Assembly: GCA_016871315.1 (NCBI GenBank)
Contig: VFZE01000029.1
Span: 1 to 64,000, forward strand
Reading direction: 5' to 3'
Source: Acidimicrobiia bacterium
GTDB taxonomy: Bacteria; Acidobacteriota; Terriglobia; Bryobacterales; Bryobacteraceae
Length of the DNA: 64,000 bases
The notes beneath the pieces were generated by a model, which searched no databases, was not told the DNA's origin, and worked only from the letters and a program-made list of their open reading frames with translations. Positions 67 through 1,359 of the stretch are shown piece after piece. The first letter of the stretch is position 1, and each line of letters begins with the position of its first letter. Both the position numbers and the translations under genes were made by a program.

Positions 67-85
67 GCCTAAACAAGAGTTAGGC
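67..85 (+). repeat. collapsed attC-like recombination site
   Basis: A perfect integron R' core, GTTAGGC, lies at 79-85. Only a few bases upstream is GCCTAAAC, close to the matching R'' core, so the two arms make a short hairpin without the usual 40-60 base centre. It sits directly upstream of the first cassette gene, where an attC or attI junction is expected. It may be an attC that lost its centre by deletion. The upstream context is cut by the window edge. Confidence 0.35.
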
Positions 86-123
86 TCGCCTTGGCGTCGA
101 GCGTCCGGGTGTAGAATCAATGG

Positions 124-372
124 GTGAAGATTGACGAGTTCATCTGGTCTGATGATCGAATCGATCATATTGCCTGTCACGGCGTTCGACCCGAAGAAGT
201 GGAAGAGGTTTGTTTTGGTCAGGCACTGGTTCAGCGTGCAAGGTCTTCCGGGCCAAACCCTGTCTATTACGTATTGGGGCAAGCCTCATCTGGGCGGCGC
301 ATCTTCTGCGTCATCATCCAGTTTCCCCACGGAAAGGGCTACCCTGTGACGGCTCGACCGATGACACGGTAA
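124..372 (+). CDS. brnT: BrnT-family toxin, truncated by a late nonsense codon
   Basis: The 82-residue product from a GTG start resembles BrnT (DUF497) ribonuclease toxins: N-terminal FIW, a central HGVRPEEVEEV segment, and a C-terminal YPVTARPMTR where family members read SARxMT. BrnT toxins cleave RNA and are neutralised by BrnA/CopG-type antitoxins, which lie immediately downstream here. Reading through the TAA at 370-372 gives EKERYNRWKRR and a TGA ending at 408, the C-terminus expected for the family. A Lys codon therefore probably mutated to stop, removing about 12 residues. Whether the truncated toxin is active cannot be told. The pair sits inside an integron-like cassette. Confidence 0.7.
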   Translation: MKIDEFIWSDDRIDHIACHGVRPEEVEEVCFGQALVQRARSSGPNPVYYVLGQASSGRRIFCVIIQFPHGKGYPVTARPMTR

Positions 373-404
373 GAGAAAGAGCGATACAACCGATGGAAAA
401 GACG

Positions 405-752
405 ATGACCAGACAGAAGCTACCGAAGACGGATTCCATTGAAGAGTTAGCCAGATTCTGGGACACCCACGATCTCACGGACTTTGAGCAGGAACTGGAG
501 GAAGTTCGAGAACCGGTTTTCGCGCGTAGCAAGGGCGTATCCCTGAGCATCGACCTGCAACCTGCGGCGGCGAAGCATCTCAAGGAAATCGCTCAGTCCA
601 AGGGGCTCAAGGAAACCAGCGTAGTCCGGCAATGGATTCTTGAAAGACTTGAACAGTTGCAGGGGGCTGGCCAACCGCCTAACAAAGCGTTGCAGCCGCC
701 GGCGCAGAAACCGCGCCGCGGCCGAACGCCCAGGTCGTTAGAGAGCGACTGA
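405..752 (+). CDS. brnA: BrnA/CopG-family antitoxin
   Basis: The product of about 115 residues opens with an ELARFWDTHDLTDF segment typical of CopG-type antitoxins (PF12441). A ribbon-helix-helix-like part follows (VSLSIDLQPAAAKHLKEIA, then TSVVRQWILERL) that should bind operator DNA and the toxin. I chose the ATG at 405 because it overlaps the ancestral toxin stop (ATGA at 405-408). An ATG at 393 is the alternative. The last 25 or so residues, rich in Pro and Arg, are encoded by the attC site that ends the cassette, which is common in cassette-borne genes. The new upstream stop in brnT breaks the former translational coupling. Confidence 0.72.
   Translation: MTRQKLPKTDSIEELARFWDTHDLTDFEQELEEVREPVFARSKGVSLSIDLQPAAAKHLKEIAQSKGLKETSVVRQWILERLEQLQGAGQPPNKALQPPAQKPRRGRTPRSLESD
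677..743 (+). repeat. integron attC site (cassette 1)
   Basis: R'' is GCCTAAC at 677-683, a perfect RYYYAAC. R' is GTTAGAG at 737-743, six of seven positions of GTTRRRY. Between them, GCGTTGCAGCCGCCGGCGC and GCGCCGCGGCCGAACGC form an imperfect inverted repeat, as in attC sites whose bottom strand folds for integrase. The length of about 67 bp fits. It ends the brnT/brnA cassette and overlaps the end of brnA. Confidence 0.6.
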
Positions 753-769
753 ACGGCGGTGACGTGATC

Positions 770-1357
770 ATGACGATTCGATCTGAACGACTGCTCTTGC
801 TCCCGATCAGCGAAGGCGATGCCGAGTCGCTACTGGGAGTATTCCAAGACTCAGCGGTGCGACGGTATCTCTTGGACGACGCAATCGTGTCACTCGACTG
901 GGTGAAACACGAAATCGCGTCCAGTAATGAGCGTTTCGCGAGCACCGGCGCAGGACTATGGGCGATACGCATTACGGGAACCACGAGCATCGTGGGCTTC
1001 GTCGGATTCAGGGAGTTCTTCGACCCACCGCGACTTCAGTTGCTATATGGCCTCCTTCCAGCGTGCTGGGGACAAGGACTCGCCAGTGAAGCTGCGAAGG
1101 TAGTGTGCGACCATGCGTTCGGGGTCCTGGGCTTCTCCCGTATCGAGGCGGCGATGGACGAGCCGAACCGTCGGTCAATCGTGGTGGCCGAACGCTTGGG
1201 GTTGTGCCGACTGAGTGCACCAGTTCAGACGCATGATGCCACGGCGTTCTACGGGATCGACCGTGATACATGGAACCAGAAGTATCGAGCAACAGCGCTC
1301 TCTAACAACGGCATGCAGCCGACGCCGCAGAGCGGCGCGGCTGATGCCGGCCGTTAA
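770..1357 (+). CDS. GNAT family N-acetyltransferase
   Basis: The 195-residue protein resembles RimJ/RimL-type GNAT enzymes (Acetyltransf_3): an N-terminal RSERLLLLPI strand, a central LPACWGQGLASEAA that matches the acetyl-CoA-binding QGxG/A loop, and a late MDEPNRRSIVVAERLG that matches the NxxSxxVxEKxG motif. It should transfer an acetyl group from acetyl-CoA to an amine; the substrate is unknown. A GTG at 764 is an alternative start. The C-terminal NNGMQPTPQSG tail is read from the attC site and is probably not part of the fold. It is the only gene of the second cassette. Confidence 0.85.
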   Translation: MTIRSERLLLLPISEGDAESLLGVFQDSAVRRYLLDDAIVSLDWVKHEIASSNERFASTGAGLWAIRITGTTSIVGFVGFREFFDPPRLQLLYGLLPACWGQGLASEAAKVVCDHAFGVLGFSRIEAAMDEPNRRSIVVAERLGLCRLSAPVQTHDATAFYGIDRDTWNQKYRATALSNNGMQPTPQSGAADAGR

Positions 1358-1359
1358 GC
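1300..1359 (+). repeat. integron attC site (cassette 2), 60 bp
   Basis: R' is a perfect GTTAAGC at 1353-1359. The matching R'' is CTCTAAC at 1300-1306. Between them GGCATGCAGCCGACGCCGC faces GCGGCGCGGCTGATGCC, giving the imperfect palindrome, with its GCCGACGCCGC/GCGGCGCGGC core, seen in many environmental 59-base elements. The total of 60 bp is canonical. Together with the site at 677-743 it defines a cassette of about 616 bp carrying the acetyltransferase gene. Confidence 0.7.

Follow-up and report, generated by a model that had tools for sequence, protein, structure and literature searches.

A two-cassette acidobacterial integron array headed by attI, probably with a truncated or missing integrase

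The inverted-integrase arrangement of chromosomal integrons is known from Treponema (PMC3607928), and inverted IntIs form a sub-clade of the soil and freshwater clade (PMC8352920). Acidobacteria are among the taxa that have a published attC covariance model of their own (PMC8352920). Outside class 1 integrons, attI sites have been little described (IntegronFinder 2.0 paper, PMC9024848). Here we analyse bases 1-64000 of contig C29 (VFZE01000029.1; 76,180 bp), called the window throughout, from the 6.25-Mb draft genome of a Bryobacteraceae bacterium deposited as Acidimicrobiia bacterium (GCA_016871315.1). Positions 34-1359 very probably form the start of an inverted-integrase integron of an acidobacterium: an attI followed by two cassettes, with an integrase that is truncated or missing and an array that is probably frozen.

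Like the Treponema-type chromosomal integrons, this lineage has an integrase gene (intI) that, where kept in relatives, points the same way as the cassettes. Unlike in them, the integrase of the window is truncated or absent, the array is very short and a conserved 3' segment follows it. The attC sites share phylum, R''/R' cores and hairpin structure with those of the Acidobacteria type, and were scored here with our own model, R1.

The CALIN of IntegronFinder is a cluster of at least two attC sites with no integrase nearby on the contig (PMC9024848). A sequence-only reading of the window had suggested such an integrase-less cluster. The contig carries two attC sites and no integrase, but it starts about 80 bp before the first cassette, so that the DNA next to the array falls outside it. 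The label itself fits less well: an attI (about 34-85) heads the array and a fragment of intI lies on another contig, C95, so that the likeness to a CALIN comes from the contig break. The array is best described as an integron whose integrase is truncated or missing and which a contig break has split; in function it comes near a CALIN. It is a known kind of system, to which the window array adds another example, ordinary and probably a relic. Its value is that of a clean, checkable case among the poorly described soil acidobacterial integrons, and it provides an attI consensus that can be put to use for one lineage. The features are as follows.

34..85 (about), + strand: attI, CTTAGGCCGCCCAGGGCTGGTTTTATACAGGTCAGCCTAAACAAGAG^TTAGGC, with the insertion point between G79 and T80
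80..737, + strand: cassette 1 (toxin-antitoxin), from the crossover point in attI to that in attC1; R''/R' of its ends perfectly complementary
124..372, + strand: BrnT-like ribonuclease toxin gene (PF04365, E=1.2e-5)
393..752, + strand: CopG/BrnA-like antitoxin gene (PF12441, E=6.6e-7, over the cut-off); frame reads through attC1
677-743, + strand: attC1, R'' GCCTAAC at 677-683, R' GTTAGAG at 737-743; model R1 57.1 bits, E=2.7e-9
738..1353, + strand: cassette 2 (acetyltransferase); R''/R' of its ends perfectly complementary
764..1357, + strand: GNAT N-acetyltransferase gene (PF13302, E=6.6e-25), from the list of open reading frames; frame reads through attC2
1300-1359, + strand: attC2, R'' CTCTAAC at 1300-1306, R' GTTAAGC at 1353-1359; model R1 62.0 bits, E=3e-10
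1354..1500 (core 1354-1435), + strand: conserved 3' segment directly after attC2, found also in genomes G064 and G033 and at two loci of G158

attC sites and cassette junctions

Both attC sites consist of R''-like and R'-like cores, with 6 of 7 or 7 of 7 matches, around long hairpins. Model R1 is a covariance model trained on 17 attC-like sites from other genomes of the group, the window being excluded to avoid circularity. In the alignment of these training sites, compensatory changes occur in 7 of the 11 pairs of the consensus hairpin. R1 finds two matches only in the 64-kb window, precisely where the sequence-only reading had placed attC-type cores and palindromes; a search of the whole 6.25-Mb genome returned the same two sites and none besides. 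Folded as single-stranded DNA, the bottom strand reaches -22.9 kcal/mol (z=-4.1) at attC1 and -24.1 kcal/mol (z=-5.4) at attC2. By R1 and by folding, each site thus joins R''/R' cores to a folded palindrome.

The integron crossover falls between the G and the TT of R', and the first bases of a cassette must therefore complement its own R''. The sequence GTTAGGC at 79-85 is the exact complement of the R'' that closes cassette 1 (677-683), and GTTAGAG at 737-743 is that of the R'' that closes cassette 2 (1300-1306). The G^TT junction of integrons is thus reproduced exactly by both cassettes. As the R' sequences of attC1 and attC2 differ, the match is not a trivial repeat.

Relatives of the BrnTA cassette occur elsewhere. 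In genome G138, contig C381 is 85% identical over window 300-742, attC included, in an array with two further attC matches, and contig C298 is 90% identical at a contig edge. Contig C20 of G037 matches at 76%, again with the attC. Contig C191 of G001, a genome of the same genus, matches at 78% beside a cinA-like gene, its attC being without the 5' arm. When the cassettes of the window, G138 and G037 are aligned, similarity ends at GTTAG, which is the crossover point.

These observations bear on the possibility that the sites are chance palindromes, or repeats of the repetitive extragenic palindrome (REP) kind, beside ordinary genes. The genome is GC-rich and has many inverted repeats, and many weak candidates emerge from a permissive scan for motif plus fold. 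However, the specificity of the covariance model, with E-values near 1e-9 from independent training sites and no third match, refutes this explanation. So do the perfect junctions of both cassettes and a similarity between genera that stops at the crossover point, and we give it practically no credence.

The sequence-only reading had also described a two-cassette, integron-type array of mobile cassettes, which the junctions, the attI and the cassette relatives in other genera bear out. It had named as grounds for its own rejection the lack of any covariance-model hit and of cassette homologues flanked by similar sites; R1 matches both sites, and the relatives in G138 and G037 carry attC.

attI and the integrase

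The 3' end of window 34-85 reads TTTTATACAGGTCAGCCTAAACAAGAGTTAGGC. An attI consensus, TTTTATnCAGGTCAGCCTAAACAnGAGTTAGGC, emerges from 16 loci, with most positions at least 80% conserved, and attI of the window type is present in at least 12 genomes of the order. The genes downstream of attI vary across the 16 loci, many of which have attC sites. The relatives in the family include one recorded as Bryobacteraceae bacterium, and other genomes with matching attI are recorded as Acidobacteria or Acidobacteriia, in agreement with the acidobacterial chromosome presumed from the sequence. In the window the motif sits exactly at the boundary of cassette 1, and the genome as a whole holds one attI and two attC. 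Judged by this conservation, a recognisable attI stands first in the array, which is therefore the head of an integron platform.

In several relatives the end of intI lies 150-190 bp upstream of the attI motif or of the equivalent of that motif: G039 (L127), G083 (L125), G037 (L129, L038) and G138 (L120). At these loci intI precedes attI and is oriented like the cassettes. A bare CALIN, with attC cassettes deposited away from any integron and a left motif that resembles attI by coincidence, would account for two attC sites only on a contig without integrase. Yet so conserved a motif, shared with 16 loci and placed exactly at the cassette boundary, corresponds in relatives to the region downstream of intI, and we regard coincidence as very improbable.

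Genome G049, which has no match to intI, carries three attI loci (L082, L086, L088) on three contigs; these may be orphan platforms. In two near-complete genomes, at L083 (G093) and L087 (G126), the conserved attI is followed by one gene family. These loci have neither intI nor a convincing attC further downstream; here attI may be kept as a leader or promoter.

No integrase gene was seen in the window. Position 1 of the window is base 1 of the contig, with no contig DNA left of the array, so this absence means little: an intI upstream would be out of sight. In the assembly as a whole, neither TIGR02249 nor the intI DNA of G033 revealed a full-length intI. The DNA of G033, a genome of another genus, has two matches in the own genome, C95:9220-9346 (99%) and C29:54-85. 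The former is the sole convincing intI fragment of the genome; it reaches the contig end and is oriented to join the left end of the window. The order and orientation of the two pieces are as in the G033 locus. At its 5' end the C95 fragment is fused with an unrelated gene region, so that roughly the first 66 codons are lost. Across the contig gap, the simplest inference places C95 next to C29 and makes the integrase a truncated relic. The succession of intI and attI in the same orientation is seen in relatives with matching attI, and the orientation of the C95 fragment agrees with it, though the two are not contiguous in the own genome. Matches to intI at E<=1e-25 occur in 16 of the 257 genomes of the order, mostly as fragments: a truncated or absent intI is the rule among relatives.

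Two other candidates were rejected. An intI-like match on contig C8 has a full frame of 311 aa and is a recombinase of the Xer type. C23:1422-1613 was judged from its sequence to be the C-terminus of a recombinase, close to a remnant of an IS21-like transposase, and not IntI. On C23 (L011:400-1613) this remnant adjoins the C-terminus of a tyrosine recombinase.

A complete, functional integron could also lie here, with an intact intI immediately left of the window that the assembly missed, the C95 fragment being a second, dead copy. In several relatives a contig breaks off at intI or at the array, and assemblies are known to be interrupted by repetitive arrays (PMC9024848). Against this, a genome 98% complete gave no further convincing intI fragment with either TIGR02249 or the G033 DNA, its single attI and two attC leave a second integron unneeded, and intI is mostly truncated or absent in the sequenced relatives. 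We consider an intact intI unlikely.

Several points also weigh against our own preferred reading, an integron with a truncated or missing integrase. No intact intI adjoins the array and, with the contig edge at base 1, the state of the integrase is not directly seen. The assembly is a draft of 166 contigs, 98% complete, with 3% contamination. Among relatives, most attI sites of this kind lack an intI in the 1.6 kb upstream, so that attI alone is no proof that an integrase ever adjoined the window array. Finally, the BrnT-like match to PF04365 falls under the curated Pfam cut-off (25.9 bits against 34.5).

In the mechanism that we favour, each cassette would have been inserted by IntI recombination between double-stranded attI and folded single-stranded attC. 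The newest cassette would adjoin attI, towards which the integrase gene, immediately left of the window, would point. With intI known only as a 5'-truncated fragment, the array has presumably lost recombination activity and is probably frozen, unless IntI acts in trans. It is probably dormant.

Cassette genes

Cassette arrays often carry toxin-antitoxin pairs, which probably stabilise them. Pfam matches agree with the gene units first proposed, a toxin-antitoxin pair and then a GNAT, and the antitoxin and GNAT frames do cross their attC sites. These genes are presumably expressed; no sigma-70 promoter was found on the + strand of window 1-1800.

The BrnT-like gene ends (361-372) at a TAA stop where three of the four homologues have AAA and the fourth, in G138, has a 1-bp deletion. 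About 12 C-terminal residues are thereby missing. Since the toxin is shortened and the integrase broken, the array looks decaying. The window TAA and the G138 deletion fall at one place, and truncation of the toxin may be recurrent.

The predicted product of cassette 2 is an acetyltransferase of the GNAT family. No relative of it was found in viral contigs. Its last 17 or so codons (..NNGMQPTPQSGAADAGR) lie in attC2. Read-through of attC (1300-1357, 677-752) yields tails of this kind, and MQPT-type C-termini of environmental proteins may be translated attC sites.

The 3' segment and its surroundings

The segment that follows attC2 is 98% identical in G064 over 101 bp, 94% in G033, and 91% and 89% at the two G158 loci. 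It adjoins the last attC at every locus compared, in four genera. We found no description of a conserved 3' segment after the array in the integron literature searched. The chromosomal gene pair at window 3017-5400 is just 68% identical between G000 and G064. Given 89-98% for the 3' segment, movement of the integron parts between genera seems to postdate the divergence of the chromosomes. The main alternative is that contamination of the draft genomes created the likeness across genera. The segment may belong to a mobile platform, may be a last cassette that has lost its attC, or may be a constrained terminator.

Tentatively, and with rather less than even confidence, we suggest that this acidobacterial family has a mobile platform specific to the lineage. 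Its attI leader and its 3' segment would be constant and bracket variable cassettes, and the platform would have spread between genera, many copies being without their own integrase and perhaps served by IntI in trans. Clinical class 1 integrons offer a likeness, as their own 5' and 3' conserved segments resemble the leader and 3' segment proposed here. With attI repeatedly found without intI, and a 3' segment common to several genera, two ideas become testable: that platforms move as units, and that orphan attI are served by a distant integrase.

An Rfam scan of window 1-10000 gave no match at E<=1, and a plasmid collection had no match to window 1-1500. As a candidate for the right boundary, a genome-wide REP found no support: even with 2 mismatches allowed, the flanking motif CGTGTMACGCGCNACTCGGAAGT has no match in the own genome. 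The 3' segment holds a hairpin, TGCGAAATCCCCTTCGCA, a motif that recurs elsewhere in the family (L093, L094, L095). Beyond the segment, window 1502-1790 is a dispersed repeat of about 280 bp, with two further copies in the own genome (C59 and C66; 92-93%) and weaker ones in relatives.
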